From Telluribacter humicola (GTDB lineage Bacteria > Bacteroidota > Bacteroidia > Cytophagales > Spirosomataceae), in contig NZ_JAFIQT010000004.1 of NCBI RefSeq assembly GCF_017355935.1, positions 310,001-374,000 on the forward strand: a DNA stretch of 64,000 nt, in the 5' to 3' direction. Positions within the stretch are counted from its first letter, which is position 1. Each line of letters starts with the position of its first letter. The translations under genes and the position numbers were made by a program. Shown here piece after piece: positions 18,501 through 41,222 of this stretch. Under the pieces are notes generated by a model. The model was not told the origin of the DNA. It made no database searches and worked only from the letters and a program-made list of their open reading frames with translations.

Positions 18501-21500
18501 CTGTGATAGCTATATTGCCTGAACTTCCCGCGGGAGGAGTACCGCTGAATGTGAGGTTTGAGCCGTTGAAGCTTAACCAGGCAGGTAATGGCGTACCATC
18601 AGCCAGACTAGCTGAATAGGTAAGTCCATCAGCATCCGGATCGGTAAATGTATTTTCGGCAAATGCAAAGTTAAATGACGCACCTACCGTAGCACTCTGA
18701 TCCATGATGGCATTGGCCACAACAGGAGGCTGATTGGTAGTGGCCGATGCAGGTACTATCTCAATAGCCGACACCTTAGGGTTATCGGCGCTACCCATAC
18801 CGAATACAATATTCAGGGTGCCGTCACTTACATTTACCGTAAAGGTTTCTTTTACAGCTTTTAAGGCACCTCCGGCTTTGGTTGTGATATCATATTCGGT
18901 CAGCTTTCTAGCTCCCTCGATATCTACGTTAAATCTACGTATACCCGTACCGCTTACTCCAAAATAGATTTCAGCGAAGTGCAGGACCACATTATAAGTA
19001 CCACTGCTTACCGGTACGTTATACGAGAAACTTCCATAGCGTTCGGTCTGATAGAGTGCATCATCCGTGGTATTTTCAATGGCTTTTCCACTTTCCGTGT
19101 ACGTACTGCCCCCACTGAAATTGCCATCAGCCGCAAACTGTCGATTGTTGGAAGCCATGAAGGCTCCACCTCCCGAATTGACTCGTAGTGTAGTGGTTCC
19201 TCCGCCACTCGTAACCGTTACTGTTACCTGATCGGGACTACTGGCTGCGCCCTTATTATCTTTTACGGTTAAACTAAATACGTAGGTACCTGCTACCAGA
19301 CCGCTTACTGTCGGATTTGCTATGGTACTATTGTATGTAGCCGTAGTAGGTCCACTGGTTTGAACCCAGGCATATTGATCTACCGTACCGTCCTGGTCTG
19401 TACCTGATCCTTCCAGTACTACACTGGTGGCGGGAAATGTGACTATTTTATCCGGTCCGGCGTTGGCAACCGGTGGTTTATTGGTAGGTGCTATACTTAC
19501 GGTTACCGTTATTGACTCTTCGTCGAATAAGGCCGGTGTACCACTGTCCGTTACTTTGATAGTAAAAGTAAAATCGCCCGATTGCGAAGGAGTCCAACTA
19601 AATGCGCCCGTCTGAGCATTGATAGTAGCTCCAGTTGTACCGGATACGCTATAAGTAAGGGTTTGAGCGGGAACATCGCTATCGATAGCACTGGCAGTAA
19701 AGGTTAGAGGCTGTCCAACGGTAGCTGTCTTGTTGCCAATGGCCGCCAGGACTGGTGCTGTATTGGTAGTAGTTGGGCTATCTGTTTTGATATTTATAAA
19801 ATCCCAGCTCGCTGTGAAAGGAGTGGACCAGAAAGAAGTGGAGATAATTCCTACGGCCATAGCGGGTGCTCCCTGTATAGCATTCAGTAAAGGGCCACCT
19901 ACCTGAATGGCAGGTCCCAGGTTCAGTACCTGACCGCCATCCTTTGCGTACCTGGCCTGTACCATTCCCGTTGCTGGATTCACCGACAGGTACAGGTCTA
20001 TTGTCCCTGTTGGCAAGCCACCTGGTAGTGGATATGTGGTGCTGCTGGCAATACCGCTATTCTCATAAAGAACCTCGATTCCTCCTGCGCCACCATCTGC
20101 CCCTAATACTATCTTGAAATAGTTCTCCTGATCACCAGTACCTATAAATATTCCCTGGGACTGATAGTACTGTGGTGTCTGATTATTGAAAAAAGGTCCC
20201 AGCAGGCGGGTTTGTACCGTAAAAGGGGGCGTACTGCTATTGACATTTACCCCAAACTGGAATCCGTTTTCCTGGTTATTGTTAGTTTGGTAGGGGTCGC
20301 CGGTACTTACATTTATTATTGAGAGTGCCCCGACTGCCCCACCGGCGATGAGGTTTTCAACCTGAAATAGATCCTGGTAATTAATATTCTGTTGCATGGG
20401 TAACATAAGGCCAGTAAAGCCCAGCCCAAATAAACCTGTTCCCGGGTGGTTGTTGAGCATGTCATACTCAATAGGTAGGTTGGTGGTGGTACCATTCTGA
20501 GCATCCAAAGAGAAATAATCACTATCATCCGGTAGACCATCATTATCATCATCGGGGTCGTTAAGGTCCGATATCAAGTCTCCATCAAAGTCCTGTGGTC
20601 TGCTAGCTGCCGAGCAGGGGTTGCTGCCGTTATCAATTTCGTCGGCGTTGGTGAAGCCGTCTCCATCGTCATCGGCACTGTTATATTGAGCACTGCATCC
20701 GGTACTAACGGGTTCTGGTTCAAAAACAAAAATGGAATTCTCAAGATAACATACGACCCATACTGTACCCGGAAAGATGTCATTATCTCCCTGAGTCGTT
20801 ATGTCCAGGGGTTGACCACCAAAGTTGGAGGCAAAGGGCAGGTCCTGGTTAAGCTTTTTGTCTCCCCGGCTGTTGGTAACATCCGTTCCTGACTCATTAA
20901 GAGAGATTTTCTGTATCGTACCATCGAAGGATGCGGCTAGCAAATGTCCCTGCAGTCCACTATTGAAGTTAGAGGCTGTATACTCGGCGATGCCGTTGGT
21001 AGAATTGAACCAGGTTAATAAAGCATTGTCGGTTTCACCCGGGTTCTGATAGTCCCCTTCTATTGGATGGGCCATATCCAAAGGCACTGGTGGCCAGTCG
21101 GCTGGTAAGGGTTTATTACCCGATTTAGTGGTTCGCCACACACCACTACTCCCATCATGCGTGTATAAGCCTGCTCCGGCAGGGTTGGCTCGTATAGGGT
21201 TGGGGTGTCCTCCGTAGAAACTACCCGGTACATACGTGTCCAGATTTCCTATATAATGCAGATTGTCCCGATTATTAACCTGCGGATCGTTAGGGCCCGA
21301 ACCGGTAGAGCCTGGCTCACCTGACACATAGTTGTTGGTAGCAGTACCTACGCCCTCACTAGCCGGATGCCCGCCCCAGCCCTGATTGGCTCCGTTATCG
21401 ATCACGTACATGCGTCTCGATTTACCCGGTGTTTTTGTAATGACCAGGTCATATCCGTTACGAAATCCGGTAGCAAACACTTTCACGGGTCCTCCCGGAA

Positions 21501-24635: not shown

Positions 24636-27600
24636 ATGTATAAATATCTATTCAAAACTTTTTTGCTGATGCTACTCTATATAGGAGTAGCGGTAAAGCT
24701 TCAGGCGCAGGACGTAGCTATCAAAGGAAAAGTTACGGACGACAAGGGAGAAACCATTCCTGGTGTAAGCGTAACGGTGAAGGGTACGCAGCGGGGAACG
24801 ATCACTAACGTAGACGGAAGCTATTCGGTCAATGCGGCGCCCGGTGCAACGCTGGTGTTTTCTTTTCTGGGTTATATGAGCCAGGAGGTGCCGGTCAATA
24901 ATCGTTCTACTATAGAGGTAACGCTTAAGACCGATACCAAAGCACTCGAAGAGGTGGTTGTGGTAGGCTACGGTACCCAACGACGGGTAGAGACAACGGG
25001 CTCTATCGCTTCCGTTAAGTCTGATGAACTGACCCAGCTACCCGTTACCAACGTAGCCCAGGGCCTTCAGGCGCGGGTCTCCGGTGTGCAGATCAATCAG
25101 AATACCGGTGCGCCCGGAGGAAATATCAGTGTCCGTATCAGGGGTACAAACTCGATCAATGGCAACTCAGAGCCGCTGTACGTGATTGATGGGATTCAGA
25201 TCTCAAACGGAGGGGGAATTAACGATGTGAGTCCACTCTCAACTATTAACCCCAATGACATTGAATCCGTAGAAGTACTGAAAGATGCTTCGGCTTCGGC
25301 CATTTACGGGGCACGGGCGGCTAACGGGGTAATACTTATTACGACCAAGCGCGGTAAAGCGGGTGTAACCCGGGTATCCCTAGACAGCTACTACGGCGTA
25401 CAGCAGGCAGCCAAAAAGCTGGATGTGCTGAATGCCTCTGAATTTGCTCAACTCGAAAATGAAACCTTCAAAAATAACGCCTATCCTGATCCGGCTTCGC
25501 AGGGTGAAGGTGTAAACTGGCAGAATCTTATCTTCCAGCAGGCTCCCATACAGAGTCATCAGCTAACGATCAACGGGGGAAGTGAAAAAACGCAACTGGC
25601 GCTATCAGCCAACTACTTTAACCAGGATGGTATCATTATCAATTCCAATTTTAAGCGTTACTCCTACCGCCTGAATGTAGATCATAAGATCAATGACCGC
25701 TTCAAGGTCGGGACGAGTATTCTGGGAAGTATGACGGTCAATAATGGTATAGAAGCCGGAAGTACTACCATTGGAGACGCCGGCGTCGTAACCGGTAGTG
25801 TACTGGGTGCCGCCATTGGTGCGCCCCCGACGCTACAACCCTATCGTCCCGACGGATCGATTTTTCCTTTCGGAGAACAGGGCAACGGTCAGTATCGCGA
25901 AGTAGTAAATCCCCTGAATTTTACGGAAGTCCTGCGTCAGAGAAATATCAAACGGACGCTGATCAACCTGTTTGGCGAATACCAGATACTTACCGGCCTT
26001 TCGTACCGGGCCTCTTTCAACGCTGATATCGATGACCGGCTGCACGACTTTTATTCTCCGATTTCTATTATTAACCGGGCGGATATCAATGATAACTCGG
26101 GCTCCGCTTCGAAATACAATTCAAATTTCATGGGCCTGCTGCACGAAAGTATACTTTCGTATAACCGCAAAATTGGCGAAGATCATAGCCTGCGCTTTAC
26201 CGGAGTATTTGCTACGCAGGTGGAGAACTTTAATGACAATTCTATCAATGTCACTGGTTTTCCGAATGACGCTACCCGCAATGAAGCCCTCCAATTGGGC
26301 CTGAACCGCAACGTAAGCAGCGGCCGTTCACAGCAGCGCCTTGACTCCTACATGGGTCGTATCAACTACGGCTTCCGTGACAAGTACTTCCTGGACCTGA
26401 CCGCCCGTGCGGATGGATCCAGTAAGTTTGGGGCTAATCACAAGTATGGTTTCTTCCCGGCTATCTCGGCCGCCTGGAGACTAATCGAAGAGCCTTTCCT
26501 GCGGGATGTAAACTGGCTGTCGGACCTTAAGCTGCGGGCTAGCTACGGCATCACGGGTAACGCCGGTGGTATTTCTCCCTACCAGTCACTGGCTACGGTG
26601 GGCTCAGGAGGGGGCTATAATCTTAACAATACCTACCAGACGGCCATTCGTCCGTCGGGCATTGCTAACCCGGATTTGCGCTGGGAGAAATCAGCCCAGT
26701 CAGACATTGGTTTGGATATAAGCCTGTTCAACAACCGTATTTCAGTAATCATGGATTACTACCACAAAAGGACCAATGACCTGCTGTACGTAAAGACGCT
26801 GCCACTCTCATCGGGTTATTCCAGCATTACAGGTAATTACGCTTCACTGGAAAACAAAGGGTTTGAATTTTCAACCAATGCCATCATTCTGGATGGTCCG
26901 GTTCGCTGGTCAGTATCCGGTAACCTGACGGCCAACCGCAATAAGCTGCTGGATCTGGACGGGGGTACTACTCAGGAACGCTTCATTACCAACTACTCCA
27001 TCCTGAGCGTAGGGCAGCCACTGGGGGTATTCAAGACATACGTTTTTGATGGTATCAACCAGACTGGCGAAGCAATAATACCGGGTTACGATGGCCGGGT
27101 AGGCGGTCATAAAGTAAAAGACCTGAACAACGACGGGGCTATTAATTCGCAGGATCAGATTGTCACTGGCAACCCCAATCCAAACTTTATCTTTGGAGCA
27201 TCTACCAATGTAAACTACAAAAACTTTGATTTCAGTGCCTTCCTGTCGGGCTCACAGGGCAATGATATTTATAATGTGAGTCGCTTATCGTTTGAAAATC
27301 CGCTCGGACAACGTAACCTGTTCAAGGGCGTTGTTGACCGATGGACGCCTACTAATCCAAGTAATCAATACGTTAGTGCCTCGGTAGCGGGGCGTCTGCC
27401 CATCACTGATTATCCCATGGAGGATGGTTCATACGTACGTCTGAAAAACATTACTCTTGGCTATACACTACCAGCTATTAAGGGTATTAGCCGGGCGCGC
27501 ATTTATGTGAGTGCTAACAACCTGCTGACCCTGACTAAGTACAGTGGATTTGATCCGGAGGTGAATACCTACGCCGGTTCTAACACGGCAATTGGTATTG

Positions 27601-27659
27601 ATAACCTGGTGTATCCACAGGCCAAGTCGTTCCTGGGTGGTATTCAAGTGACATTCTAA
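24636..27659 (+). CDS. SusC/RagA-family TonB-linked outer membrane receptor
   Basis: 1007 residues. Signal peptide (about 1-25, ending LQAQ), CarboxypepD_reg-like domain (about 28-110, IKGKVTDDKGETIPGVSVTV), plug domain (about 120-235, with LYVIDGIQIS and SVEVLKDASASAIYG) and a long beta-barrel ending in the outer-membrane-type terminus LGGIQVTF. It is directly followed by its SusD partner (27 bp gap), so the pair forms the classic SusCD pedal-bin importer. The gene is divergent from the LacI-type regulator. Substrate probably an oligosaccharide or glycoside, based on the hydrolases downstream. Confidence 0.96.
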   Translation: MYKYLFKTFLLMLLYIGVAVKLQAQDVAIKGKVTDDKGETIPGVSVTVKGTQRGTITNVDGSYSVNAAPGATLVFSFLGYMSQEVPVNNRSTIEVTLKTDTKALEEVVVVGYGTQRRVETTGSIASVKSDELTQLPVTNVAQGLQARVSGVQINQNTGAPGGNISVRIRGTNSINGNSEPLYVIDGIQISNGGGINDVSPLSTINPNDIESVEVLKDASASAIYGARAANGVILITTKRGKAGVTRVSLDSYYGVQQAAKKLDVLNASEFAQLENETFKNNAYPDPASQGEGVNWQNLIFQQAPIQSHQLTINGGSEKTQLALSANYFNQDGIIINSNFKRYSYRLNVDHKINDRFKVGTSILGSMTVNNGIEAGSTTIGDAGVVTGSVLGAAIGAPPTLQPYRPDGSIFPFGEQGNGQYREVVNPLNFTEVLRQRNIKRTLINLFGEYQILTGLSYRASFNADIDDRLHDFYSPISIINRADINDNSGSASKYNSNFMGLLHESILSYNRKIGEDHSLRFTGVFATQVENFNDNSINVTGFPNDATRNEALQLGLNRNVSSGRSQQRLDSYMGRINYGFRDKYFLDLTARADGSSKFGANHKYGFFPAISAAWRLIEEPFLRDVNWLSDLKLRASYGITGNAGGISPYQSLATVGSGGGYNLNNTYQTAIRPSGIANPDLRWEKSAQSDIGLDISLFNNRISVIMDYYHKRTNDLLYVKTLPLSSGYSSITGNYASLENKGFEFSTNAIILDGPVRWSVSGNLTANRNKLLDLDGGTTQERFITNYSILSVGQPLGVFKTYVFDGINQTGEAIIPGYDGRVGGHKVKDLNNDGAINSQDQIVTGNPNPNFIFGASTNVNYKNFDFSAFLSGSQGNDIYNVSRLSFENPLGQRNLFKGVVDRWTPTNPSNQYVSASVAGRLPITDYPMEDGSYVRLKNITLGYTLPAIKGISRARIYVSANNLLTLTKYSGFDPEVNTYAGSNTAIGIDNLVYPQAKSFLGGIQVTF

Positions 27660-27686: not shown

Positions 27687-29183
27687 ATGAAAAGAAATTT
27701 TAAATCCATCTATAAAATACTACCCATGCTGCTCCTTGGCGTGGGGATGAGTTCCTGCGAACTGGAAGAGCAGGTATATTCTTCCATCTTTACCGACAAC
27801 TTTTACAAAACGGGTACCGATGCAGAAAAGGGATTAATAGCTGTCTATGATGCCCTGACTGGCTTGTACGGCGGTCCGGCTGCCGTTATGGTACCTGCTT
27901 ACAGTGCTGACCAAGTGTATCCAAGGGCGGTAGTAGGGCGTAATACCCTGACCCTTTTTACTGTTGAGCCTACCTATACTACCCAGCGGAGCGCCGGACG
28001 GACAAACGAATCACCCCAACAGATCTGGTCGTCATCCTATAGTGGTATTGAGAAAGCCAACTGGATCATTGCCAAGGTACCTGACGCGACCATGGACGAA
28101 ACCCGCAAGAAGCAAATCCTGGGCGAAGCTTATTTTCTTCGCGCTTTTTACCACTGGATGCTGACCAAAAACTTCGGAGATGTACCCGTAAAGACAGAAC
28201 CAAGTACCTCGGAAGCGAAAGCCTATGTAGGGAAAAGTCCCAAAGCCGATGTATATAAACAGATATACAGTGATCTGGATCAGGCCCTGGCGGCAGGTTT
28301 GCCTTCCTTCCCGGCGGTAGAAAAAGGTCGTCCTTCCAAAGAGGCGGTCAATGCTCTCTACGCCAAAGCCGCTCTATACAACGAGGACTGGGCAACGGCC
28401 CTTGAGAAAGCCGAATCGGTTATTAATTCGGGTAAATATAAACTACTGCCTAACGTACTGGATGTATATGACTACCGTACCGAAGACGCCGCCCGGGCCG
28501 AGAATATTTGGGCCTTTGAGACCGATCCCATCTCGCCGGGTACTGGGCACCAGTTGGTCGGCCTCACCGGCCCATCCGGTAGTGCCGGTGTCGACTATGC
28601 CCGTACATCGTTCGGGTCCATGTTTGCCTACCAGTCTTTCTTTAATTCTTTCGATCCAACTGATAAGCGCCGTCAACTGCTGGATACAACTTATGTAAAC
28701 CGGGCCGGTCAGGTCGTACCTCAACGAAGCATTACTCCTATCACAACAGAAGGAGTACTGATCAAGAAGTATCGTGATCCGGTTTCTACGACGAGTACCA
28801 TCGTGAATATCCCTATCCTGCGCCTGCCGGATATGTACCTCATCGCGGCTGAAGCAGAGGCGCGCCTCAACGGAGCTACTCCTAAGGCCTACGGTTATAT
28901 TAATGCTGTTCGTACTCGTGCGGGTCTACCTGATCTGCAGGCTGGGCTAAGTAAGGAAGCCTTTATTGACGCGGTTCTGCAGGAGCGTTCGTGGGAGTTC
29001 TTTGCCGAAGGGGACCGCTGGTATGACCTGACCCGTACCGATCGGTTTCTGGATGTAATACCAAAGGCAACTAACTCAGTATATCCAAATCGCCCTGTTC
29101 AGCCCAAGCACAAGTACTTCCCCATTCCGCAGGATGAGGTAAATGCTAATCCTGAGTTAGAGCAGAACCCTGCCTGGCAGTAA
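27687..29183 (+). CDS. SusD/RagB-family nutrient-binding outer membrane lipoprotein
   Basis: 498 residues. Lipoprotein signal with Cys24 after LLLGVGMSS. TPR-like helices begin at GTDAEKGLIAVYDALTG and continue through AYFLRAFYHWMLTKNFGDVP, the usual SusD hallmark. The C-terminal part shows LPDMYLIAAEAEARLN, FIDAVLQERSWEFFAEGDRWYDL and a HKYFPIPQDEVNANPELEQNP ending, all typical. It caps the SusC barrel at the cell surface. A 13-bp hairpin follows, so expression of the next genes may be lower than that of susCD. Confidence 0.96.
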   Translation: MKRNFKSIYKILPMLLLGVGMSSCELEEQVYSSIFTDNFYKTGTDAEKGLIAVYDALTGLYGGPAAVMVPAYSADQVYPRAVVGRNTLTLFTVEPTYTTQRSAGRTNESPQQIWSSSYSGIEKANWIIAKVPDATMDETRKKQILGEAYFLRAFYHWMLTKNFGDVPVKTEPSTSEAKAYVGKSPKADVYKQIYSDLDQALAAGLPSFPAVEKGRPSKEAVNALYAKAALYNEDWATALEKAESVINSGKYKLLPNVLDVYDYRTEDAARAENIWAFETDPISPGTGHQLVGLTGPSGSAGVDYARTSFGSMFAYQSFFNSFDPTDKRRQLLDTTYVNRAGQVVPQRSITPITTEGVLIKKYRDPVSTTSTIVNIPILRLPDMYLIAAEAEARLNGATPKAYGYINAVRTRAGLPDLQAGLSKEAFIDAVLQERSWEFFAEGDRWYDLTRTDRFLDVIPKATNSVYPNRPVQPKHKYFPIPQDEVNANPELEQNPAWQ

Positions 29184-29298: not shown

Positions 29299-30393
29299 AT
29301 GAAGAAAATCCTGTTGGTCATAGGCATTCTGGTAGCCATCATGGCTTTCCTTCCCGGTAGTAGAGATACCATCAGGAAGGAAAAAGCCTTTGAAACCTAT
29401 TTCGGAGATTCAGTACTGATCGAGGTAGAACTGGCCTATAGTCAGTCCGGAAAGCCCGACTACTATACCAGCCACGTCCAGACACCGGTGTGTAAAGACA
29501 GCCTTTGCTACCTGGTGGTCATTGACCTGTACTGGGATCTGCTGGGGAACTTCAAAAAATACGAACTCCCCCCCGACAAGCCGCTTACCAAATTTGACCA
29601 TGACCCTTTTACGGAGGAAGATCACCAGAAGCTCAGCTCCATATTGTCCAATAAGACCAGCCTGCTGCGCGACTACGATATGAAGGCTCTGGTCGATGAC
29701 AATGTGAAACGGAGTTCCAGCGTAGTGGATGCCACCACTGGAGCTACCAGCAACACAATCAAAGACGAGGTAGTAGGGGGAGCCCTTTATACCACCCACA
29801 CACTCTGGCACATTGCCAACGGTGCAGTAGCCCAGAAAATACTGCAGCATACCGAAGGGAGGTTCACGGATTCACTGCTCGTGCATATGTTACGTTCTGA
29901 CCAGTTTCAGTATCAGTTTTATGCTTTAAACAAGATACCCGCCGGAGCTACGAACAAGTACCTGCCTCATCTGATCAGACTTGTAGCAACCGGCGACTCA
30001 TACGTCCCCTTTTTTGCTATTGAAAAATTACCCGAAGCAGTATGGACTTCGTCAGTCCACCAGAAAGAACTGGCAGGTATGGTAGGACGGGTCAAGTTCG
30101 AAATGCAGAATGAGCTCTTAAATAAGCTGAAAGGGTACCCGCTCCATACCGGTACACTTGATGTACTAACCGGTCAGGTAGATAAGCTGACTGAGCAACA
30201 GATCATAAGAGTACTTGGATTGCTCAAAGCCAACGCCACTTCGCTTAACCAGGAGTCGCTGCTGAGGCTAGCGCCGTTACTGGATAGCCCGGTAAAGGAA
30301 GTTGCTTCGCTAACGTATCAACTCTTCCAGACCAAAGCAGATTCGTATAAGGATGTAAAAAAAATACTTAATACACGTGAGAAGGGCTCCTGA
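29299..30393 (+). CDS. membrane-anchored FMN-bind-like protein with helical C-terminal domain
   Basis: 364 residues. Residues 1-18 form an N-terminal hydrophobic anchor or signal (KKILLVIGILVAIMAFLPG). The 60-170 region ends in SVVDATTGATSNTIKDEVV; D144-A-T-T-G-A-T150 matches the Dxx(S/T)GAT signature where FMN_bind proteins such as NqrC and RnfG carry covalent FMN on the last Thr. The preceding YLVVIDLYWDLLGNF strand fits the same fold. Residues about 180-364 are helix pairs resembling HEAT/ARM repeats (LLVHMLRSDQFQYQFYAL, HLIRLVATGDS). The next gene encodes a Tat-exported FAD oxidoreductase, so an extracytoplasmic electron-transfer pair is suggested. No ApbE flavin transferase is in the window. 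The assignment rests on motif reading only. Confidence 0.65.
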   Translation: MKKILLVIGILVAIMAFLPGSRDTIRKEKAFETYFGDSVLIEVELAYSQSGKPDYYTSHVQTPVCKDSLCYLVVIDLYWDLLGNFKKYELPPDKPLTKFDHDPFTEEDHQKLSSILSNKTSLLRDYDMKALVDDNVKRSSSVVDATTGATSNTIKDEVVGGALYTTHTLWHIANGAVAQKILQHTEGRFTDSLLVHMLRSDQFQYQFYALNKIPAGATNKYLPHLIRLVATGDSYVPFFAIEKLPEAVWTSSVHQKELAGMVGRVKFEMQNELLNKLKGYPLHTGTLDVLTGQVDKLTEQQIIRVLGLLKANATSLNQESLLRLAPLLDSPVKEVASLTYQLFQTKADSYKDVKKILNTREKGS

Positions 30394-30451
30394 GTATAGG
30401 CTCTGTTTTTCACAAATGAGATACACGTACAACGTCTAAACCTAATCAGGA

Positions 30452-32383
30452 ATGGAAACTAAAAGAAGAGGATTTTTGAAAGCGTTGGGCGTGTCCACGC
30501 TCGGTGCCGGATCAGGAGGCTTTTTTACCAATAGCCCCGTGACTCTGTTTGGAAAAAGTCCCGAAGAACTGGCAAAAGATATCAATAAGGAGGTATATCA
30601 GAAGAAACAGTATACCACGGATGTAGTCATAGCCGGTGGAGGCATGGCCGGGGTGTGCGCTGCCATTGCTGCCGCCCGTAACGGATCTAAGGTCATCCTG
30701 ATACAGGACCGCTCGCGCCTGGGAGGCAACGCCAGCAGCGAGATACGGATGCACGTACTGGGTGCTACGGCCCTACGGCAGGTGTGGCGCGAGACGGGTA
30801 TCCTGGAAGAGCTATTCCTGACCGAAGCCGTCGATAACCAGCAGCGCTGTTATGAGATGTGGGACTTTGTGATGTACGATAAGGTTATTTCAGAAAAGAA
30901 CATCACGCTGCTGCTGGACACGGTCCTGTACGATGCCGAAGTCGCCAATAGCGAAATTAAACTCATTAGAGCTATCTGCTCCCAGACCGAAGAGATTTAC
31001 GAAATAAAGGCGAAGTACTATGCTGACTGTACCGGAGACGCCACGCTCGGGGCCATAGCCGGAGCTGAATTTATGCGCGGACGGGAAGCCAAGTCGCAAT
31101 GGGGAGAGTCGCTGGCAATAGACAAGGCCGATAACAAGTCTATGGGCAACAGCCTGTTGTTTATGTCCAGTAAGCACGATCGCCCTATGCCCTATACGCC
31201 TCCGACCTGGGCCAAGAAGTTTACAGCCAAGGATTTTGTACACCGCAAGATCAATTCCTTCGAGTTTGGCTACTGGTGGCTGGAACTGGGAGGTATGGTA
31301 GATATTATTCAGGACGGACAAAAGCTCCGCCACGATCTGCTGACTATCCTCTTTGGCGTGTGGGACTACATCAAAAACTCCGGCAACCATCCCGAGTCCG
31401 AAAACTGGGCCCTTTCGTGGGTAGGCATGATACCCGGTAAGCGCGAAAGCCGCCGCTTGGTGGGTGACTACATCATGAAGCAGGAGGACGTGCAGTCAGC
31501 CAAGCTATTCCCGGATCGGGTAGCTTACGGCGGATGGCCCCTTGACGACCACCCACCCGAAGGCATGAGTAGTACAGACATGGTACCCTATATTTCCATT
31601 CCGCTTAAGGCCCCATATTCTATTCCGTTCCGGTCCCTGTACAGCAAGAATATTAAGAACCTGTTCATGGCCGGTCGCAATGTAAGCGTATCGCACGTAG
31701 CGCTTTCTTCAACCCGTGTGATGGCTACCTGTGCTACCATGGGGCAGGCCGTAGGTACGGCCATGGCCTACTGTACAAAGCATAACATTAAGCCCGTTAC
31801 ACTTAGTCAACAGAAAGCCCACCTGACCAGCTACCAGCAGTTGCTGTTGCGTCAGGATCAGGCGATGTTAGGGGTAAAAAATGAGGATCAGAAGGATCTG
31901 GCAAAACTGGCAAAAGTCAATGCCTCTTCGGAAACCAAAGAAGGCGCCGCTGCTCAGGTACTGGATGGCTACAACCGCGATATCATGGACGGTAGTACCC
32001 ACCAGTGGCGCGCCGACATGAAAGCCGGACAACCCTGGATAGAACTATCGTGGAGCAAACCGGTAAAAATCAATAATGTGCAGCTTACTTTCGATACGGG
32101 ACTGCACCGCCGGTTGCTTATTTCATCTGACGACAAGGTATATCATAGCCAGGAGAGGAAGGCGCAACCCGAAACAGTGGCGGATTATACCATTGAGGTA
32201 AAAACCAAAAAAGGAACCCAGGAAGTGGCCCGGGTTGAAAATAACTACCTCAGACGAGTAGAGCATATTTTTGCGCCTACGGAGGTTGAATCCATCCGAA
32301 TCAAGGTACTCAGGACCAATGGAGATCCACTCGCTAAACTATACGAAGTACGTTGCTACCTGGACGATATACAGGTGTCGTAA
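30452..32383 (+). CDS. Tat-exported FAD-dependent oxidoreductase (FAD_oxidored family) with discoidin-like tail
   Basis: 643 residues. The N-terminus METKRRGFLKALGVSTLGAG has a twin-arginine motif (R5-R6-G-F-L-K), indicating export as a folded, cofactor-loaded enzyme. The FAD-binding Rossmann start is TDVVIAGGGMAGVCAAIAAA (GxGxxG at 62-67) followed by GGNASSEIRMHVLGA, characteristic of the PF12831-type FAD-dependent oxidoreductases common in Bacteroidota glycan loci. About residues 490-640 form a beta-sandwich like F5/8 type C domains (WIELSWSKPVKINNVQLTFD), perhaps for carbohydrate binding. It is a paralogue of the protein at 38943-41222. Probably oxidises a sugar or glycoside in the periplasm; the reaction is inferred. 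Confidence 0.9.
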   Translation: METKRRGFLKALGVSTLGAGSGGFFTNSPVTLFGKSPEELAKDINKEVYQKKQYTTDVVIAGGGMAGVCAAIAAARNGSKVILIQDRSRLGGNASSEIRMHVLGATALRQVWRETGILEELFLTEAVDNQQRCYEMWDFVMYDKVISEKNITLLLDTVLYDAEVANSEIKLIRAICSQTEEIYEIKAKYYADCTGDATLGAIAGAEFMRGREAKSQWGESLAIDKADNKSMGNSLLFMSSKHDRPMPYTPPTWAKKFTAKDFVHRKINSFEFGYWWLELGGMVDIIQDGQKLRHDLLTILFGVWDYIKNSGNHPESENWALSWVGMIPGKRESRRLVGDYIMKQEDVQSAKLFPDRVAYGGWPLDDHPPEGMSSTDMVPYISIPLKAPYSIPFRSLYSKNIKNLFMAGRNVSVSHVALSSTRVMATCATMGQAVGTAMAYCTKHNIKPVTLSQQKAHLTSYQQLLLRQDQAMLGVKNEDQKDLAKLAKVNASSETKEGAAAQVLDGYNRDIMDGSTHQWRADMKAGQPWIELSWSKPVKINNVQLTFDTGLHRRLLISSDDKVYHSQERKAQPETVADYTIEVKTKKGTQEVARVENNYLRRVEHIFAPTEVESIRIKVLRTNGDPLAKLYEVRCYLDDIQVS

Positions 32384-32411: not shown

Positions 32412-32434
32412 ACAGGTGGTGAAAGTCCACCTGT
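32412..32434 (+). repeat. small intercistronic hairpin
   Basis: An 8-bp stem, acaggtgg (32412-32419) with ccacctgt (32427-32434), loop tgaaagt, 15 bp before the next start codon. It could modulate translation or protect the mRNA end. Confidence 0.4.
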
Positions 32435-32448
32435 CAAATCTGAAAACA

Positions 32449-34956
32449 ATGCACAAATTACGAACGGTACTACTGATTGTCTGTCTTGGAGTAGTGAGTC
32501 TGCTGGCCCAGGCGCAGCAGACTCTACAGCTGAGTAACAATCACCTGCGAGTGGAGTGGAAGGCCGGTCCAGAGGGATGGATGATCCGGCAGGTTGCTGT
32601 TAAGAAAGGGAATAAGTGGGACACCGAACTTGCTCCTTCTGGGGAGTACACGCTGCTATTCTCCGAAGTGGAGCCTTCTAAAGAATCAGCCGGTACCTTT
32701 GACAAAAGTACCGGCGGCAAATTCCCCGAAGATAGCTATCATTACCAGCAGGAGCAGTGGAAGGAAAGTACTACGGCCGTAGCGCTGAATACCGCTGGCA
32801 AAGCCTACCACTTTTTCCCATCTACCGGCAAAATGGTGGGAAAGGATAAGGTTCATTTCCGCCACGAAACCGATGTAGCCACCATCGTAACAGAGTGGAC
32901 TCTTGATCCTCAATTCCCTACAGATGTATTGGTTAAACAAACTATTACTCCTAAAAAAGGAGGCTATTTCTCTCTGGCCAGCCCCTCGGTAGCGACCTTA
33001 CCCGAGTCAAAGATGGCCTGGGCGTCGGTACCGGGGTACTTCCAGGGAAACTTCATGCAGGATAATTTTGCCAAAGCCTACGCCTACGGACATGGTGTCC
33101 CGAAGTTGCCGGTCATCTACCGTGAGCGCTGCGCCAGTACCCTGGCTCCGCTGGTAAGTACAAAGAGTGGTGTAACGCTGGCCATCATCCCCGATCCCGG
33201 CCTGGCCCGCGATCCCTGGGCAAAGGATAAGATCACTCAGACGGACTGGCACATCGGACTATCCCATATGAATCGTAAGGGACAGCTTTCGCCCACGCTG
33301 TACTACCCGGTTCTGGGTGAGTACGAGTCGAACCGGGAACCCGGGCAGACACTCAGCTATAACTACCGCTACAGCCTGGTGGATGGTGACTGGTTCAAGA
33401 CCTTGAAGCATGCCATATACGATATCTACCAGTTTAAAGAAGGGTTAGAGCTTCGGCAAAGCAAGCAGTCACTGATAAGCCGTATTGAGCAAATGCACCA
33501 CTACCTCACCGATCCTAAAACCTCCATGTGGAATGTAGAGGAATTTGAAGGATTGAAGATAGGAGCGCAGTCGTACCTGGGTGGGGTGGTAGGCTCCAAC
33601 AAGGATGCCATGAAAAACTCTGACTACGGCGCCATGTGGATGCTGGCTCATGCCACAAAGGACCCGGACCTTACCCAAAATGTACTGCCCTACGCCCTGA
33701 ACTTCAAACTAACACAACAGCAGACTGAGCCCGGGTTTTTCAAGGGAGCGGCCATTGGTCAGTACTACCTGGCCAAACCCAAGAAGTTTGTGGAGGAATG
33801 GGGGGCTGTCGTAGAGCCTATGGCCGTAACCTACTACATCATGCTGGATGTAGGGAATATGCTGCTTTTTGAACCTGACAATAAAGAACTGAAAGAACGC
33901 CTCAAACTGGGTGCGGAGCAACTACTCCGCTGGCAGAAGCCAGACGGCAGTTGGGCGGTAGCCTATGATCGCAAGACTGAGGAAGAATTGTTTAAAGATG
34001 TCAAAGATCTCCGCCCTACCTTTTATGGTCTTCTGGTAGCTCATCGTATCCTGAAAGATCCCAAGTACCTGCAGGCCGCCCGGAAAGGAGCGGATTGGTT
34101 TGTTAAAAACGCCATCGAGACAGGGGCATTTCTGGGTGTATGCGGCGATGCCCGCTACGCGCCTGACTTCGCCACGGGCCAGTCAGCTCAGGCGCTGCTG
34201 GATCTGTACGAAGTCACTAAAAGCAAAGTATATAAAGACGCTGCCATTCAGGCGGCCAAAATCTACACCAGTTCCATCTATACCCACCCTATACCTGATC
34301 AGGAAATAAAGACTGTAAATGGTATTGAGCGCAAGGACTGGGAAATAGCTCAGTCCGGACTCAGCTTTGAGCACGGAGGAATATTTGGCTCGGCCACCCG
34401 CCATGGCCCCATCCAGCTAGCCAGTCACGCCGGTATGTTTATCCGGATGCATCAGCTTACGGGCGAGCCACTTTTTGCCGATATGGCCCGGGCCGCAGCC
34501 ATTGGCCGCGACGCCTTCGTCGATCCTAAAACCAGCGTAGCTTCCTACTACTGGAACGCCATGAACAGGGGTGCCGGTCCTTACCCGCATCACGCCTGGT
34601 GGCAGGTTGGCTGGATCACCGACTACCTGCTATCAGAAGCCGAGCTTCGCTCGCAGGGCAAAGTTTCCTTCCCCCGCGGCTTTGTTACTCCCAAAGTCGG
34701 ACCACACCAGACGTATGGTTTTGCTCCCGGTACTATCAACGGAGAAAAAGCCAGATTAATCATCAATGAAGAATGGGTGAAGGTAGACCAGCCGGTTGTC
34801 GATTATGTATTGGCCGAGTCAGTGGATGGTAGTAAAAGGTTTGTCATTCTGCTCAACAACCGGGCACAGGCTACAAATTTCAACCTGGTAGTTGGACAGA
34901 AAAGTCCGGTTCAAAAGCAACTACCCGCCTGGGGAATGGAAGTCGTTGAGATGTAA
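32449..34956 (+). CDS. secreted six-hairpin glycosidase-like protein
   Basis: 835 residues from ATG 32449; a GTG 11 codons upstream falls in the hairpin and precedes a clear signal peptide (MHKLRTVLLIVCLGVVSLLAQ), so it is rejected. Residues about 25-330 look like a beta-sandwich. Residues about 340-720 hold alternating helices with the aromatic-rich loops of an (alpha/alpha)6 barrel (LLRWQKPDGSWAVAYD, YGLLVAHRILKDPKYLQAA, FEHGGIFGSATRHGP, HHAWWQVGWITDYLLS). A small C-terminal beta domain ends it. This architecture occurs in polysaccharide lyases and unsaturated-glycoside hydrolases, but I cannot fix a family or catalytic residues. Its place in the locus supports glycan breakdown. Confidence 0.8.
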   Translation: MHKLRTVLLIVCLGVVSLLAQAQQTLQLSNNHLRVEWKAGPEGWMIRQVAVKKGNKWDTELAPSGEYTLLFSEVEPSKESAGTFDKSTGGKFPEDSYHYQQEQWKESTTAVALNTAGKAYHFFPSTGKMVGKDKVHFRHETDVATIVTEWTLDPQFPTDVLVKQTITPKKGGYFSLASPSVATLPESKMAWASVPGYFQGNFMQDNFAKAYAYGHGVPKLPVIYRERCASTLAPLVSTKSGVTLAIIPDPGLARDPWAKDKITQTDWHIGLSHMNRKGQLSPTLYYPVLGEYESNREPGQTLSYNYRYSLVDGDWFKTLKHAIYDIYQFKEGLELRQSKQSLISRIEQMHHYLTDPKTSMWNVEEFEGLKIGAQSYLGGVVGSNKDAMKNSDYGAMWMLAHATKDPDLTQNVLPYALNFKLTQQQTEPGFFKGAAIGQYYLAKPKKFVEEWGAVVEPMAVTYYIMLDVGNMLLFEPDNKELKERLKLGAEQLLRWQKPDGSWAVAYDRKTEEELFKDVKDLRPTFYGLLVAHRILKDPKYLQAARKGADWFVKNAIETGAFLGVCGDARYAPDFATGQSAQALLDLYEVTKSKVYKDAAIQAAKIYTSSIYTHPIPDQEIKTVNGIERKDWEIAQSGLSFEHGGIFGSATRHGPIQLASHAGMFIRMHQLTGEPLFADMARAAAIGRDAFVDPKTSVASYYWNAMNRGAGPYPHHAWWQVGWITDYLLSEAELRSQGKVSFPRGFVTPKVGPHQTYGFAPGTINGEKARLIINEEWVKVDQPVVDYVLAESVDGSKRFVILLNNRAQATNFNLVVGQKSPVQKQLPAWGMEVVEM

Positions 34957-35111: not shown

Positions 35112-36854
35112 ATGCAACAACTTGATTTTATAGTAATGGCCGTGTTTGCGGTATTCCAGATGCTGGTAGGGCTGGCCTTTTCCCGCACGGGTACCGACGC
35201 CAAATCATTCTTTGCCGCCGGAGAGTCAGCACCCTGGTGGGTAAGCGGCCTGTCCCTGTTTATGAGCTTTCTTTCGGCGGGTACCTTTGTGGTGTGGGGC
35301 TCCATCGCTTATGATCTGGGCTTTGTTGCCATTACTATTCAGCTGTCTATGTGTATTGGTGGTCTGGTAACGGCCTACTTCATAGCGGATCGCTGGAAGC
35401 GGACACACGCCATGACCGCCGCCGAGTACATAGGGCGGCGGCTGGGGACCCGGGTCCAGCAGTTATTTACCTACCTGCTCACGCTGTTCACCTTATTCAC
35501 CATCGGCGGGGTACTCTACCCGGTGGGTAAGCTGGTGTACGTGGCGACACCCTTCTCGCTCAACACCTGTATCATCGTACTGGGGCTCATGGTGATCCTG
35601 TACACAGCTATGGGGGGGCTTTGGGCGGTACTGGTTACGGATGTACTCCAGTTTGTCATTCTGCTGGCGGCTGTACTGATGGTCGTTCCGCTGGCCCTTG
35701 ATCGTGCCGATGGTTTTGGTGCTTTTGTCCAGAAAGTCCCGGATAGTTTTTTCAATGTCTTTAATGGCGAATACACTCTGGGCTTTACGCTGGCCTTCGT
35801 CATGTACCACATTATTTACATCGGGGGAAGCTGGGCTTTTGTACAGCGGTACACCAGCGTAAGTACCCCCCGTGAATCCCGCAAGGTGGCCTATCTTTTT
35901 GCCGGACTGTATTCGGTGAGTCCATTTCTGTGGATGCTCCCTCCTATGATTTATAAGTCGCTGAATCCAGGTTTGTCAGGGTTGGAAACGGAGGGGGCCT
36001 ACATGCTGATGGCTCAAATGGTACTACCAGCCGGACTGGTAGGTCTGATGCTGGCGGCAATGGTCTCTGCAACGGCCAGTACCGCTAATACCCTGTTGAA
36101 TATGCTGGCGGCCGTATTTACTAATGATGTTTATAACAAGCTGATCAATCCTGATGCTACCGATAAGACTCTCGTTAGCGTAGGTAGATTAATGACCGTA
36201 GTCTTTGGCTTTATCACGATTGGTATCGCCCTGGCGGTACCGCATATTGGCGGTCTGGTAAATCTGGTCCTAAGTGTGGGGGCTATATCAGGCGGATCAT
36301 TACTACTACCCGTCGTCTGGACCTTATTCTCCCGGAGACAGAATGCCCGCTCCATCCTGACTGTTTCGATGATCAGTCTGGCCGCCGGATTGTTTTTCAA
36401 GTTTATTACCCCCGCCTTCTTTGACTATTCGTTGAGTCGAGCGGCCGAAATGTCACTGGGTATGGGATTCCCCTTTATACTACTAGCCTTTTTTGAGTGG
36501 GTAGTTTACAGAGATAAAGAGGAAGACCGTCAGTATACTCAGTATCAGGAGTGGCTGGCAGGACGTAGTCTGGCTAAGGCTAAGGTGCCTGAACCATCGG
36601 CTCCTTCTGACTCATTGGCACAAAATACTTTTGCCATACGTGCCATCGCCATCAGCTTTGTCCTGACCGGACTCGGTATTGCGGGTTTGGGTATCAATGC
36701 GGGTGAAGATGTGGGACTGATTGCCGGTATTGGTTTGGCAATTGTAGCCATTGCCGGTATCATATGGCGTGCAAGCATGAAGCAGGGGGCCGGGCAGAAA
36801 GAAGTAGCTGTTGATAACGAAATAACGAATAAAGAACCAATTACCCGGAGCTAA
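35112..36854 (+). CDS. sodium:solute symporter (SSS family)
   Basis: 580 residues with about 13-14 hydrophobic segments. The N-terminus (LDFIVMAVFAVFQMLVGLAFSR) is followed by KSFFAAGESAPWWVSGLSLFMSFLSAGTF, the family signature around TM2. YTAMGGLWAVLVTDVLQF and MVSATASTANTLLNMLAAVFTNDVY are also characteristic. The protein belongs with sugar, sialic-acid or organic-acid Na+ symporters and takes small solutes across the inner membrane. Located between the secreted glycosidase-like gene and the GH2 gene, it most likely imports the monosaccharide or acid released in the periplasm. Confidence 0.93.
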   Translation: MQQLDFIVMAVFAVFQMLVGLAFSRTGTDAKSFFAAGESAPWWVSGLSLFMSFLSAGTFVVWGSIAYDLGFVAITIQLSMCIGGLVTAYFIADRWKRTHAMTAAEYIGRRLGTRVQQLFTYLLTLFTLFTIGGVLYPVGKLVYVATPFSLNTCIIVLGLMVILYTAMGGLWAVLVTDVLQFVILLAAVLMVVPLALDRADGFGAFVQKVPDSFFNVFNGEYTLGFTLAFVMYHIIYIGGSWAFVQRYTSVSTPRESRKVAYLFAGLYSVSPFLWMLPPMIYKSLNPGLSGLETEGAYMLMAQMVLPAGLVGLMLAAMVSATASTANTLLNMLAAVFTNDVYNKLINPDATDKTLVSVGRLMTVVFGFITIGIALAVPHIGGLVNLVLSVGAISGGSLLLPVVWTLFSRRQNARSILTVSMISLAAGLFFKFITPAFFDYSLSRAAEMSLGMGFPFILLAFFEWVVYRDKEEDRQYTQYQEWLAGRSLAKAKVPEPSAPSDSLAQNTFAIRAIAISFVLTGLGIAGLGINAGEDVGLIAGIGLAIVAIAGIIWRASMKQGAGQKEVAVDNEITNKEPITRS

Positions 36855-36865
36855 ACCTACCACTA

Positions 36866-38887
36866 ATGAGAAAACTCGCGTACCTTCTTGTAATCTGCTT
36901 TTCTATTTGCGTACCCACCTACGGACAATATTCCATCCGGGAGTCCAATGCTATACCTCTGCATGGCGAGTGGTCTTTTACCCTTGACCCGGCTAGTATG
37001 GGTCAGAAGGGAGCCTGGTATAGTGACAAAGTACATACTAGTCGATTTGATAAAGTAACCGTGCCCCATAGCTTCTCAATTGATCCTCGCTATGGCTTTT
37101 ATACAGGTACTGTCTGGTACCGCAAGACATTCCCCTGGCAGCTTGAAAAAGGGAAACGGGTAATACTACACTTTGATGCAGCCTATTACATGACCGATGT
37201 ATGGCTTAACAACCAGAGGGTAGGACGGCACGAAGGCGGCTACACGCCTTTTCATTTTGACATAACTGAGTACCTTAAAGCGGGCGAAAACCTATTGGCT
37301 GTCTCTGTCAACAATGACACCTGGCAGCCGGGTACCATTCCCGGTGGCAAGGACAACAACCAGCCCAACGACTCTTTTATGGGCTGGATGAACTACGGTG
37401 GGCTTAACCGTCCGGTGTACCTGACCGTAGAGCCAGACGTGTACGCGGAGAATCTTAAAGTAGAAGCTACTCCTGATCTGGCAAAGGGCACGGCGACTAT
37501 TCGGGTAAAGTTGCGGGTCAGAAACATGACGGGCCAGGCAGCTTCTCCCAAAGCAAACTACCAGGTATACTACCAGGACAAGCCATTGACCCTGAATTGG
37601 AAAGAGAACGCAGTTCGTGTTGCTTCCGGTCAGACCGCTGTTCTGGAAGCCGAAGCTACTATCCCAAGGGCACAGGTTCAATTGTGGAGCCTGGACATGC
37701 CTAATCTATATCGTATACAGGCTACCATTCCGGGTGATACTCTTACTACAAACTTCGGTATTCGTAAAGTAGAGGTACGTAATGCTCAACTGCTTCTCAA
37801 CGGACAACCTATAAGAGTTGGTGGGGGGAATCGTGTTGTTGATTCTCCCGGACTGGGTGCTATGGAGCCGGACTGGCTGATCGAGAAGGATTTTAAAATG
37901 ATGAAGGAAGCAGGCATGGAGCTCCAGCGCCTGACGCACTACACGCCCAGTGAGCTGTTCTATGACCTGGCCGACCGCTACGGGATGCTGATCATCACCG
38001 AAGCCGGTAACTGGCAGCTTACCCCTAATCAGATGGATACCGACTCTATCCGCAAAAACTTTAAGAACCAGTTTCGCGAGATGGTGGAGCGTGACTGGAA
38101 TCATCCTAGTGTCATTGCATATAGCGTGGGAAATGAATACCTGTCGGAGCAGCCAGCCGGGCAGCGCTGGACCAAAGACATGATCGCCTACGCACGCGAA
38201 CTGGACCCTACGCGCCTGTATACTTTTGCTTCCATGCGATTGAATATACTACCCAAGAAACCGGAGGACGAGGCGAGTCAGTACGTGGATTTTGTGTCGA
38301 CCAATACCTACGGCAATCACGCCAAGGTACTCGACCACATTCACCAGCTCTACCCCGGCAAGCCCATCTTTATCAGTGAGTGGGGCCGCCGCGCCGACAC
38401 CGAAACCGGCGAGGCCGGGCAAATAGACCACCTGCGCGATATTATGAAAGAAGTCCGCAGCCGTCCCTACGTAGTAGGAGCCTCCTGGTGGACCTACAAC
38501 GACTATCAGAGCCGCTTCCATGGTACCAACGCCAATGGCTACCGCCCATGGGGTATAGTCGGACCGGATCGGTCCCCTCGACCCATTTACCCCGTTTACC
38601 AGCAGGAGATGTCGCCCGTCACGGTCGAGAAGGTACGCTATACCCCCGGTGACCAGGGAGTCCATCAACTGGTAGTTAGGATTATGTCACGTAACGATTT
38701 TCCTTATTATCCCGTAATCAACTATACCCTGAGGGTTGATGATAAAGCGTTTCCCATTCCGGATCTGCAACCCGGAGGTAGTACAGACATAGTAGTACCC
38801 GTTAGAGGTTTTGAAAAGTCCGTACGGATAAAAGTGATGAAACCTACTGGCTTCGTGGCTGTTGAAGAAAACATAGATTTAAAATAA
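36866..38887 (+). CDS. secreted glycoside hydrolase family 2 protein (beta-glucuronidase/beta-galactosidase-like)
   Basis: 673 residues with signal peptide (MRKLAYLLVICFSICVPTYG). Domain order is typical of GH2: jelly-roll sugar-binding domain (about 35-190, WYRKTFPWQLEKGKRVILHFD), Ig-like domain (about 190-295), TIM barrel (about 296-570) and a short C-terminal beta domain. The catalytic acid/base is the Glu in SVGNEYLSEQ (near 423) and the nucleophile the Glu in FISEWGRR (near 504). The compact length and the YTPSELFYDLADRYGMLIITEAG pattern resemble beta-glucuronidases. It starts 11 bp after the symporter stop, so the two are co-transcribed. Exact sugar specificity is not readable. Confidence 0.94.
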   Translation: MRKLAYLLVICFSICVPTYGQYSIRESNAIPLHGEWSFTLDPASMGQKGAWYSDKVHTSRFDKVTVPHSFSIDPRYGFYTGTVWYRKTFPWQLEKGKRVILHFDAAYYMTDVWLNNQRVGRHEGGYTPFHFDITEYLKAGENLLAVSVNNDTWQPGTIPGGKDNNQPNDSFMGWMNYGGLNRPVYLTVEPDVYAENLKVEATPDLAKGTATIRVKLRVRNMTGQAASPKANYQVYYQDKPLTLNWKENAVRVASGQTAVLEAEATIPRAQVQLWSLDMPNLYRIQATIPGDTLTTNFGIRKVEVRNAQLLLNGQPIRVGGGNRVVDSPGLGAMEPDWLIEKDFKMMKEAGMELQRLTHYTPSELFYDLADRYGMLIITEAGNWQLTPNQMDTDSIRKNFKNQFREMVERDWNHPSVIAYSVGNEYLSEQPAGQRWTKDMIAYARELDPTRLYTFASMRLNILPKKPEDEASQYVDFVSTNTYGNHAKVLDHIHQLYPGKPIFISEWGRRADTETGEAGQIDHLRDIMKEVRSRPYVVGASWWTYNDYQSRFHGTNANGYRPWGIVGPDRSPRPIYPVYQQEMSPVTVEKVRYTPGDQGVHQLVVRIMSRNDFPYYPVINYTLRVDDKAFPIPDLQPGGSTDIVVPVRGFEKSVRIKVMKPTGFVAVEENIDLK

Positions 38888-38942: not shown

Positions 38943-41222
38943 ATGATGCATTTAGATGCTACTGATAAAAGAACAGCCCGTACCTTGTCCCTGTCTGCTG
39001 ACCTGGTCGTAGTAGGAGGGGGATTGTCGGGTACCTGCTGCGCCATTACCGCTGCCCGAGCAGGTATCAAAGTAATTATTGTGCAGGATCGACCGGTACT
39101 AGGGGGGAATGCTTCTTCGGAGGTGCGGCTATGGGTCCTGGGGGCTACCTCGCACATGGGTAACAACAACCGCTGGGCCCGTGAGGGGGGAGTCATTGAT
39201 GAGATCCTGGTCGAAAACCTGTACCGAAATCCCGATAGCAATCCGCTTATATTCGATACGATACTCCTGGAAAAAGTAGTGGAGGAACCTAACATCACCC
39301 TGCTCCTCAATACGGCTATTTATGAAGTAGAGAAGGAGGGGCCGGATACAATTACCAAAGTCATCGGCTTCTGTAGTCAGAACTCCAGCCAATACGAGCT
39401 GGCTGCTCCTTTGTTCTGTGATGCATCGGGTGACGGTATTGTCGGGTTTCTATCGGGCGCCGCCTTCCGGATGGGAGCTGAATCCTCCGAGGAATTTGGT
39501 GAGAAGTTTGCCCCCTCCAAAGAGTACGGAGAACTACTAGGGCACTCCCTCTACTTCTACAGCAAAGATGTCGGTCGTCCCGTTCGCTTTGTACCCCCCA
39601 GCTTTGCTCTAAAGGATATCACAAAGATCCCTCGCTTTAAGAGTTTCAATGCCCAGGACTTTGGCTGCCGGCTATGGTGGGTAGAGTACGGAGGACGTCT
39701 GGATACGGTACATGATACTGAGGCCATCAAGTGGGAGTTATGGAAAGTTATCTATGGCGTCTGGAACCATATCAAGAACTCAGGGCAGTTTCCCGAGGCA
39801 GAAAACCTTACACTAGAGTGGGTAGGTACCATACCCGGAAAGCGGGAGAGCCGTCGCTTTGAAGGCGACTACATGCTGATTCAGCAGGATATAGTCGAGC
39901 AACGCTCTCACCAGGACTCAGTTGCCTTTGGTGGCTGGAGCATTGACCTGCATCCGGCGGACGGTGTGTTCAGCGAAAAGCCGGGCTGTAACCAATGGCA
40001 TAGCAAAGGCATCTACGGGATACCGTACCGCTGTTACTACTCCCGCAATATCAGTAACCTGTTCCTGGCGGGCCGTATCATATCAGCTTCACACGTAGCC
40101 TTTGGCTCGACCCGGGTGATGGCTACTTCGGCGCACGGTGGGCAAGCCGTTGGAATGGCAGCGGCCCTATGCGCTAAAAAGGGTTTACAACCGCGTCAGC
40201 TGTTAGAGCAATCCCGTATGAAAGAGCTACATACCGAGCTGCAACGAATCGGGCAACATATTCCGGGACTGAACCTACAGGATGAATTAGACCTGGTTCG
40301 TAAGGCGCAGGTTAAAGCATCCAGCGAACTGGTGCTGACTGAACTGGTAGAAGACGATGACCCGCAACCCATGGAGTTCGCTACTGCGCAAATGCTTCCG
40401 GTGCAGGCCGGAAAGATGCCTGGCGTAGTGATCCACCCGTATACGGATGTACCTACAGAACTGGAAGTGGAGCTCAGGATATGTAGCCGGAAAGGAAGCC
40501 ATACTCCGGATGTGACGTTAGAGAAAAAGGTGATACCGCTGCAGAAGGGTAGGAACTGTGTACATCTTTCTTTCGATGCGGTAATCAGTGAACCTACCTA
40601 TGCCTTCCTGATGATCGGGAATAATCCGGAGATTTCTCTGAAAATGTCCAGTCAGCGGGTTACTGGTCTGCTATCTGTTTTTAATTCCATCAATCCTGCC
40701 GTATCTAACTACGGAAAGCAGGAGCCGACGGAAGATATTGGCGTAGACGCGTTTGAATTCTGGTGTCCTCAGCGTCGGCCCAAAGGCAAGAATGTAGCCG
40801 TAAAAATAGAAGAAAGTCTCCGAAGCTTTGGTGCCGAAAACATTCGAAATGGTGTGCAGCGACCTACGAATCAGCCTAATGCCTGGGTGGCCGATTTTGC
40901 TGATCCCGATCCATCCTTGACCCTTAGCTGGTCCGAACAGCAGAGCATCCGGCGGGTGGAGCTCTTCTTCGATACGGATTACGATCATCCGTCGGAGAAC
41001 GTACTCATGATTCATCCGGAACCAGTTGCCCCTTTTTGCGTGCAGAAGTACCAGCTCCTGGATGATCAGGGGAGAGTGGTGTATGAGAAGCGCGACAACC
41101 ACCAGACGCGCAATACTATTCACTTTGATGAACCCCTCACTACCTCACGTCTGCGACTCCGGGTAGAGCACCCATCTGCCACGTCACCCGCGGCTGTATT
41201 TGAGATAAGATGTTATGCATAA
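38943..41222 (+). CDS. cytosolic FAD-dependent oxidoreductase (FAD_oxidored family), paralogue of 30452-32383
   Basis: 759 residues without any signal peptide. The FAD-binding start is ADLVVVGGGLSGTCCAITAA (GxGxxG at 25-30) and then GGNASSEVRLWVLGA, almost the same as the Tat-exported paralogue. Shared blocks include WWxExGGxxDxxxD, GxWxxIKNSG and PGKRESRRxxGDYxxxQ. It is longer because an extra beta domain (about 430-610) sits between the oxidoreductase core and the terminal discoidin-like domain. The exported and cytosolic pair in one locus suggests two oxidation steps on related substrates, one on each side of the membrane. The last gene of the locus, it ends at a strong terminator. Confidence 0.9.
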   Translation: MMHLDATDKRTARTLSLSADLVVVGGGLSGTCCAITAARAGIKVIIVQDRPVLGGNASSEVRLWVLGATSHMGNNNRWAREGGVIDEILVENLYRNPDSNPLIFDTILLEKVVEEPNITLLLNTAIYEVEKEGPDTITKVIGFCSQNSSQYELAAPLFCDASGDGIVGFLSGAAFRMGAESSEEFGEKFAPSKEYGELLGHSLYFYSKDVGRPVRFVPPSFALKDITKIPRFKSFNAQDFGCRLWWVEYGGRLDTVHDTEAIKWELWKVIYGVWNHIKNSGQFPEAENLTLEWVGTIPGKRESRRFEGDYMLIQQDIVEQRSHQDSVAFGGWSIDLHPADGVFSEKPGCNQWHSKGIYGIPYRCYYSRNISNLFLAGRIISASHVAFGSTRVMATSAHGGQAVGMAAALCAKKGLQPRQLLEQSRMKELHTELQRIGQHIPGLNLQDELDLVRKAQVKASSELVLTELVEDDDPQPMEFATAQMLPVQAGKMPGVVIHPYTDVPTELEVELRICSRKGSHTPDVTLEKKVIPLQKGRNCVHLSFDAVISEPTYAFLMIGNNPEISLKMSSQRVTGLLSVFNSINPAVSNYGKQEPTEDIGVDAFEFWCPQRRPKGKNVAVKIEESLRSFGAENIRNGVQRPTNQPNAWVADFADPDPSLTLSWSEQQSIRRVELFFDTDYDHPSENVLMIHPEPVAPFCVQKYQLLDDQGRVVYEKRDNHQTRNTIHFDEPLTTSRLRLRVEHPSATSPAAVFEIRCYA

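Follow-up and report, generated by a model that had tools for sequence, protein, structure and literature searches.

The gene under study encodes a 364-residue protein that we designate FMNbL (a label of our own) and lies in a SusC/SusD locus within the window, that is, the whole 64,000-nt stretch of DNA that was analysed. The genes and features at the locus are as follows; counts out of 72 refer to the sample of FMNbL genes described in the next section.

15574-22470, minus strand: open frame of 2298 aa
23111-24298, minus strand: divergently oriented LacI-family regulator
24636-27659, plus strand: SusC-like TonB-dependent transporter (Plug, CarbopepD_reg_2; Pfam)
27687-29183, plus strand: SusD-like protein (SusD_RagB; Pfam)
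29299-30393, plus strand: FMNbL, 364 aa, predicted to be an exported electron carrier and a substrate of ApbE
29491-29508, plus strand: invariant cysteine pair C65-x4-C70 of FMNbL (72/72 genes)
29728-29748, plus strand: predicted flavinylation motif D144-A-T-T-G-A-T150 (D144 and T150 in 72/72 genes)
29746-29748, plus strand: codon of T150, the predicted FMN attachment site
29866-30390, plus strand: C-terminal ARM/HEAT-like helical repeat of FMNbL, about residues 190-364
30452-32383, plus strand: FADox1, 643 aa, twin-arginine exported FAD oxidoreductase of PF12831, also matching DUF7402 at its C-terminus (Pfam)
32416-34956, plus strand: protein of 846 aa, matching GH88 and GH127 below the cut-off
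35112-36854, plus strand: sodium:solute symporter (PF00474)
36866-38887, plus strand: glycoside hydrolase family 2 (GH2) protein
38943-41222, plus strand: FADox2, a second PF12831 oxidoreductase

The initial annotation had placed FMNbL in a SusCD locus, next to a twin-arginine FAD oxidoreductase, and both statements hold: Pfam verified the SusC-like and SusD-like genes upstream, and FADox1, whose gene starts 58 bp downstream of the FMNbL gene, matches PF12831 at an E-value of 2.2e-85 and has an N-terminus (METKRRGFLKALG) of the twin-arginine pattern. FADox2 shares 42% identity with FADox1 across 458 aligned positions and has no export signal according to a simple rule. The N-terminus of FMNbL is hydrophobic over residues 3-19 or so, which fits an anchor as well as a cleaved signal. 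Residues 144-150 form the Dxx(S/T)GAT motif reported earlier, here DATTGAT, and the pattern D..[ST]GA[ST] occurs just once, in FMNbL itself, among the 20,045 residues of the window's open frames of at least 150 aa.

Elsewhere in the neighbourhood, the 846-aa protein has homologues near 23 of the 72 FMNbL genes and may belong to an undescribed glycosidase family. The LacI-family regulator carries two zinc-ribbon-like CxxC pairs N-terminal to its helix-turn-helix, and the LacI neighbours of two other FMNbL loci (L058 and L059) have similar N-termini.

FMNbL genes and their exported FAD oxidoreductases

Homologues of FMNbL were detected at E ≤0.001 in 83 of the 222 genomes of the same family; a near relative, Telluribacter sp. 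SYSU D00476 (the genus belongs to the Spirosomataceae), encodes an FMNbL that is 77% identical. Across genomes sampled from the phylum, 11 of 395 match a 45-row FMNbL profile, which may be an undercount given that at most five candidates per genome were scored. Eight of these matches reach E <1e-47: the window's own genome, one genome of the same family and six from two other families of the class. Three weak phylum matches outside the family (G414, G302 and G594) were rejected as FMNbL, the match being confined to the helical repeat. For gene-level comparison, 60 stretches were picked by hand, nearly all around the FMNbL matches of the 222 genomes, together with L006 and seven stretches from outside the family; they were chosen by their FMNbL match, irrespective of neighbours. 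After omission of L037, which lies on the same contig as L006, and addition of the window, this sample holds 72 FMNbL genes.

By a simple rule applied to predicted starts, 60 of these 72 proteins have a Sec- or TM-like N-terminus, two a Tat-like one and ten none, several of these ten having a start that seems to lie too far upstream. Judged from these predicted N-termini, FMNbL is probably an extracytoplasmic protein.

Of the 72 FMNbL genes, 70 have a same-strand gene for a PF12831-type oxidoreductase within 1.5 kb, and 69 have one within 300 bp; oxidoreductases were called when they resembled one of six reference proteins (E 1e-5, at least 250 aa, at least 40 bits). In the two other cases (L144 and L076) the oxidoreductase lies 1.6 and 3.1 kb away, with an ApbE gene in between in the former and two genes in the latter, and both enzymes match PF12831. 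The partners were sorted into five classes by best reference; the 15 partner-type proteins tested in Pfam, covering all five classes, match PF12831 without exception at E ≤1e-62, and the others were assigned to this type by similarity to the tested ones. All 71 assigned partners carry a Tat- or Sec-like N-terminus by the simple rule. The association also holds in reverse: orthologues of the 460-aa class, searched for at E 1e-120 and found in 35 of the 222 same-family genomes, have an FMNbL 136-414 bp away (match to match) in 35 of 35 cases. The conserved pairing that the initial annotation had proposed as a check is thus borne out. Not every PF12831 protein pairs with FMNbL; in the window's own genome, two of five long PF12831 matches (E <1e-80) directly adjoin its two FMNbL genes.

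FMNbL type and partner type have diversified together. On an FMNbL tree, obtained by a quick search and with 23 of its 69 inner branches weak, partner class switches six times, against at least 33 switches in 200 label shuffles. Pairwise distances among FMNbL proteins and among their partners show a correlation of 0.88, and none of 500 permutations exceeds 0.09; co-inheritance of linked genes would also raise this value, so that joint inheritance is proved and contact is not.

Some loci have additional redox genes. In the paralogue locus of the own genome (L036, 6284-11604), the genes for the FAD oxidoreductase and FMNbL are followed downstream by those for a gluconate 2-dehydrogenase subunit 3 and a GMC oxidoreductase, and L039, L040 and L041 each contain two FMNbL genes, two FAD oxidoreductase classes and ApbE.

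The predicted flavinylation motif, ApbE and FMN_bind

Eight residues are identical in all 72 FMNbL genes: C65, C70, W79, G83, F104, D144, T150 and A162. The threonine proposed to carry FMN, whose conservation the initial annotation had made a test of its reading, is thus invariant. The rest of the motif is less strict: the position three residues before this threonine is Ser in 38, Thr in 23 and Ala in 11 (Ser or Thr in 61/72), position 148 is Gly in 57, Ser in 14 and Ala in one, and Ala149 is replaced in two (Pro in L073, Ser in L143). A review (PMC12052999) writes the motif recognised by ApbE as D-x-x-[S/T]-G-A-[S/T]. FMNbL shares with FMN_bind proteins the Dxx[S/T]GAT motif with its conserved last threonine, and departs from it through the alanine at -3 in 11 of 72 genes. 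These eleven read DAKAGAT (L039, 12782-13711; L043-L047, L049, L051, L053, L056 and L057), and ApbE lies within 6 kb of eight of them.

As the initial annotation stated, ApbE is absent from the window; the search of the whole genome that it suggested found two apbE matches, both on other contigs (C11 and C18), the C11 copy being about 3 kb from the only PF04205 match of the genome at E ≤0.001. A same-strand ApbE gene lies within 6 kb of 20 of the 72 FMNbL genes (17 loci) and of none of the remaining 52, the window's included; it directly adjoins FMNbL in seven (L039, L040, L041, L070, L071, L074 and L144). Two of the ApbE-like genes (L041 and L043) were tested and have Pfam matches at E 1e-73 and 4e-77. 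ApbE being found in 219 of the 222 same-family genomes, co-occurrence at genome level is uninformative and was dropped as evidence. The proximity of ApbE to 20 of the 72 genes, on the other hand, adds to the evidence for the flavin interpretation of the initial annotation; as expected of an ApbE substrate, FMNbL has apbE in its own genome and, among its relatives, also close by in the gene cluster.

FMNbL resembles FMN_bind proteins (PF04205: NqrC, RnfG and fumarate-reductase-like enzymes) in its motif, its predicted extracytoplasmic location and its position beside an FAD oxidoreductase, to which some of these proteins are fused. It differs from them in its scores, which lie below the Pfam cut-off, in its ARM/HEAT-like tail and in its invariant cysteine pair; its partner moreover belongs to PF12831, whereas the fumarate-reductase-like partners described in the consulted part of PMC8238504 belong to PF00890. 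The profile search proposed by the initial annotation went against membership of FMN_bind: the window protein has no PF04205 match at E up to 1, and none of 55 FMNbL members, 45 in a first scan and 10 in a second, reaches the Pfam cut-off. Sub-cut-off matches were obtained for two of the 45 (best E 0.077) and two of the 10 (best 16.2 bits against a cut-off of 22). Membership is therefore not supported by the one curated test available. For the window protein, searches of Pfam, NCBIfam and PDB sequences returned no flavin family at cut-off, nor did NCBIfam for the 45 homologues.

Profile comparisons gave a fainter signal. The 45-row profile weakly matches the solved FMN domain 8p2b (E 0.16) in the register of the motif, and also weakly matches helical repeats. 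In local alignment of the FMNbL N-domain with 30 FMN_bind domains, the motifs align over 30 columns (probability 84.8, P 6.5e-6, score 36.0); the controls score no higher than 20.0 for 150 full shuffles and 35.1 for 150 shuffles that keep the motif. The probability is 56.9 for the full-length FMNbL alignment and only 13.7 for the N-domain in global mode. The best shuffle that keeps the motif comes within one unit of the real score and the global value is low, so the likeness to FMN_bind beyond the motif is slight.

FMNbL is most likely an uncatalogued family of ApbE substrates. Such families have precedents, since the consulted part of PMC8238504 describes DUF2271 and DUF3570 as ApbE substrates outside FMN_bind, which were recognised, like FMNbL, by motif and clustered apbE; these are different families, and flavinylation is experimental there and predicted for FMNbL. 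The same portion reports genomes with apbE and no known substrate and states that less prevalent substrates remain unidentified. A flavoprotein inventory of Brucella ovis lists PF12831 and ApbE as separate entries, as far as the consulted part of PMC9045290 goes. Among the literature matches listed (titles and beginnings of abstracts), there is no account of the FMNbL family or of a PF12831/ApbE/SusD link, and no role is described for exported PF12831 oxidoreductases in SusC/SusD operons.

Proposed electron transfer and its significance

There is good support for FMNbL as a flavinylated carrier of electrons for a single FAD oxidoreductase, a role like that of the FMN_bind partners of oxidoreductases. 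What the calculations show is the export-type N-termini, the invariance of the motif, the nearly constant pairing, the joint diversification and the linkage to ApbE. The scheme that we favour, at a probability of about 0.7, is one in which we infer flavinylation, the direction of electron flow, the substrate, the acceptor and the role of the solenoid. FMNbL would be exported and would receive FMN on Thr150 from the ApbE encoded elsewhere in the genome, becoming the dedicated electron partner of the adjoining, Tat-exported FADox1. The sugar or glycoside presumably imported by the SusC/SusD pair would most likely be oxidised by FADox1, whose FAD would hand electrons to the FMN of FMNbL, and FMNbL would pass them on to an acceptor in the envelope or membrane; the ARM/HEAT-like solenoid may serve as the docking part. 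The electron chain envisaged by the initial annotation is supported in part, by the conserved pairing, the invariant Thr150 and the linkage to ApbE; its tie to glycan import is weakened. On the same strand, 58 FMNbL genes have SusC or SusD no more than 7 kb away and the other 14 have neither, a count in which divergent SusC/SusD copies and those beyond early-ending stretches may be missed. Given these 14 genes, glycan import is not a fixed setting of the FMNbL module; some FMNbL genes sit among sulfatase-like genes. A scan for CxxCH found no electron acceptor near FMNbL genes: among the 64 genes scored (the sample minus the window and L138-L144), same-strand open frames with CxxCH, the mark of a candidate c-type cytochrome, lie within 5 kb of just three.

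Electrons could also flow in reverse, from the membrane through FMNbL to a FADox1 that reduces an extracytoplasmic substrate, in the manner of FMN_bind-containing fumarate and urocanate reductases; we consider this unlikely. The FMN-binding fumarate-reductase-like enzymes described in the consulted part of PMC8238504 do act as reductases, and FADox1 has PDB sequence matches that include flavocytochrome c fumarate reductases, but over residues 39-95 only. It likewise exceeds the PF00890 cut-off (28.8 versus 20.4 bits), with a match that spans 37 residues in the dinucleotide-binding stretch, whereas its full-length match is to PF12831. The glycan-type neighbours in the window operon (GH2, symporter, SusC/SusD) are suited to oxidative catabolism, and the abstract of PMC11356934 calls one genus of the same bacterial family an obligate aerobe.

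The structure models bear on another, still less probable proposal, in which FMNbL helps the oxidoreductase structurally or in its assembly (as a docking scaffold or folding factor) and has a DxxxGAT that carries no flavin. AlphaFold2, run on a two-row alignment (window and L006), predicts only helices from residue 191 onwards, with block pLDDT of 74-95 over residues 241-360. Among solved structures, those nearest in fold are armadillo/catenin repeats, the best at E 0.015, so that no match reaches E 0.001; in Pfam, seven of the 45 homologues have a HEAT_2 match when E-values up to 1 are admitted (best 3.3e-5). The helical-repeat C-terminus noted at the outset is thereby recovered as a predicted solenoid resembling ARM/HEAT repeats, and such a solenoid resembles a binding scaffold; the invariant cysteines could also form a structural disulfide. 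For the N-terminal part, block pLDDT is 25-44 over residues 1-190, and the N-domain alone, modelled from the same two rows, has a mean pLDDT of 42.6. Foldseek on this low-confidence model gave no match at E 0.001 and no FMN_bind structure among the best 50. The models thus neither demonstrate an FMN_bind fold nor establish its absence, which the initial annotation had named as refuting its reading, and this leaves room for a scaffold. A scaffold, however, leaves unexplained the invariant aspartate and threonine of the ApbE motif and the presence of ApbE in the same clusters. A thiol-disulfide redox protein acting through C65 and C70, with or without flavin, is very improbable despite their presence in 72/72 genes: the C-x4-C spacing differs from the usual C-x2-C of thioredoxin-type proteins, and no thioredoxin-family match was obtained for the window protein, nor for its homologues among the best 25 of 39 families.

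The flavinylated carrier thus remains our preferred reading of FMNbL, a testable candidate ApbE substrate in which, across the 45 members tested, none of the flavin models listed from Pfam or NCBIfam is found. A broader proposition, to which we give even odds, is that exported PF12831 oxidoreductases of at least five classes in Bacteroidota use this family, with its cysteine-pair flavin domain and docking tail, as their regular electron outlet. FMNbL would supply a partner for the exported PF12831 oxidoreductases of SusC/SusD operons, which predicts redox chemistry during nutrient uptake, and the conserved pair suggests that a redox unit with two flavins has been overlooked outside the cytoplasm. 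If the broader proposition is true, FADox2, the non-exported paralogue, would perform related chemistry inside, and extracytoplasmic redox conversion of nutrients would be an ordinary, overlooked step in many SusC/SusD systems.
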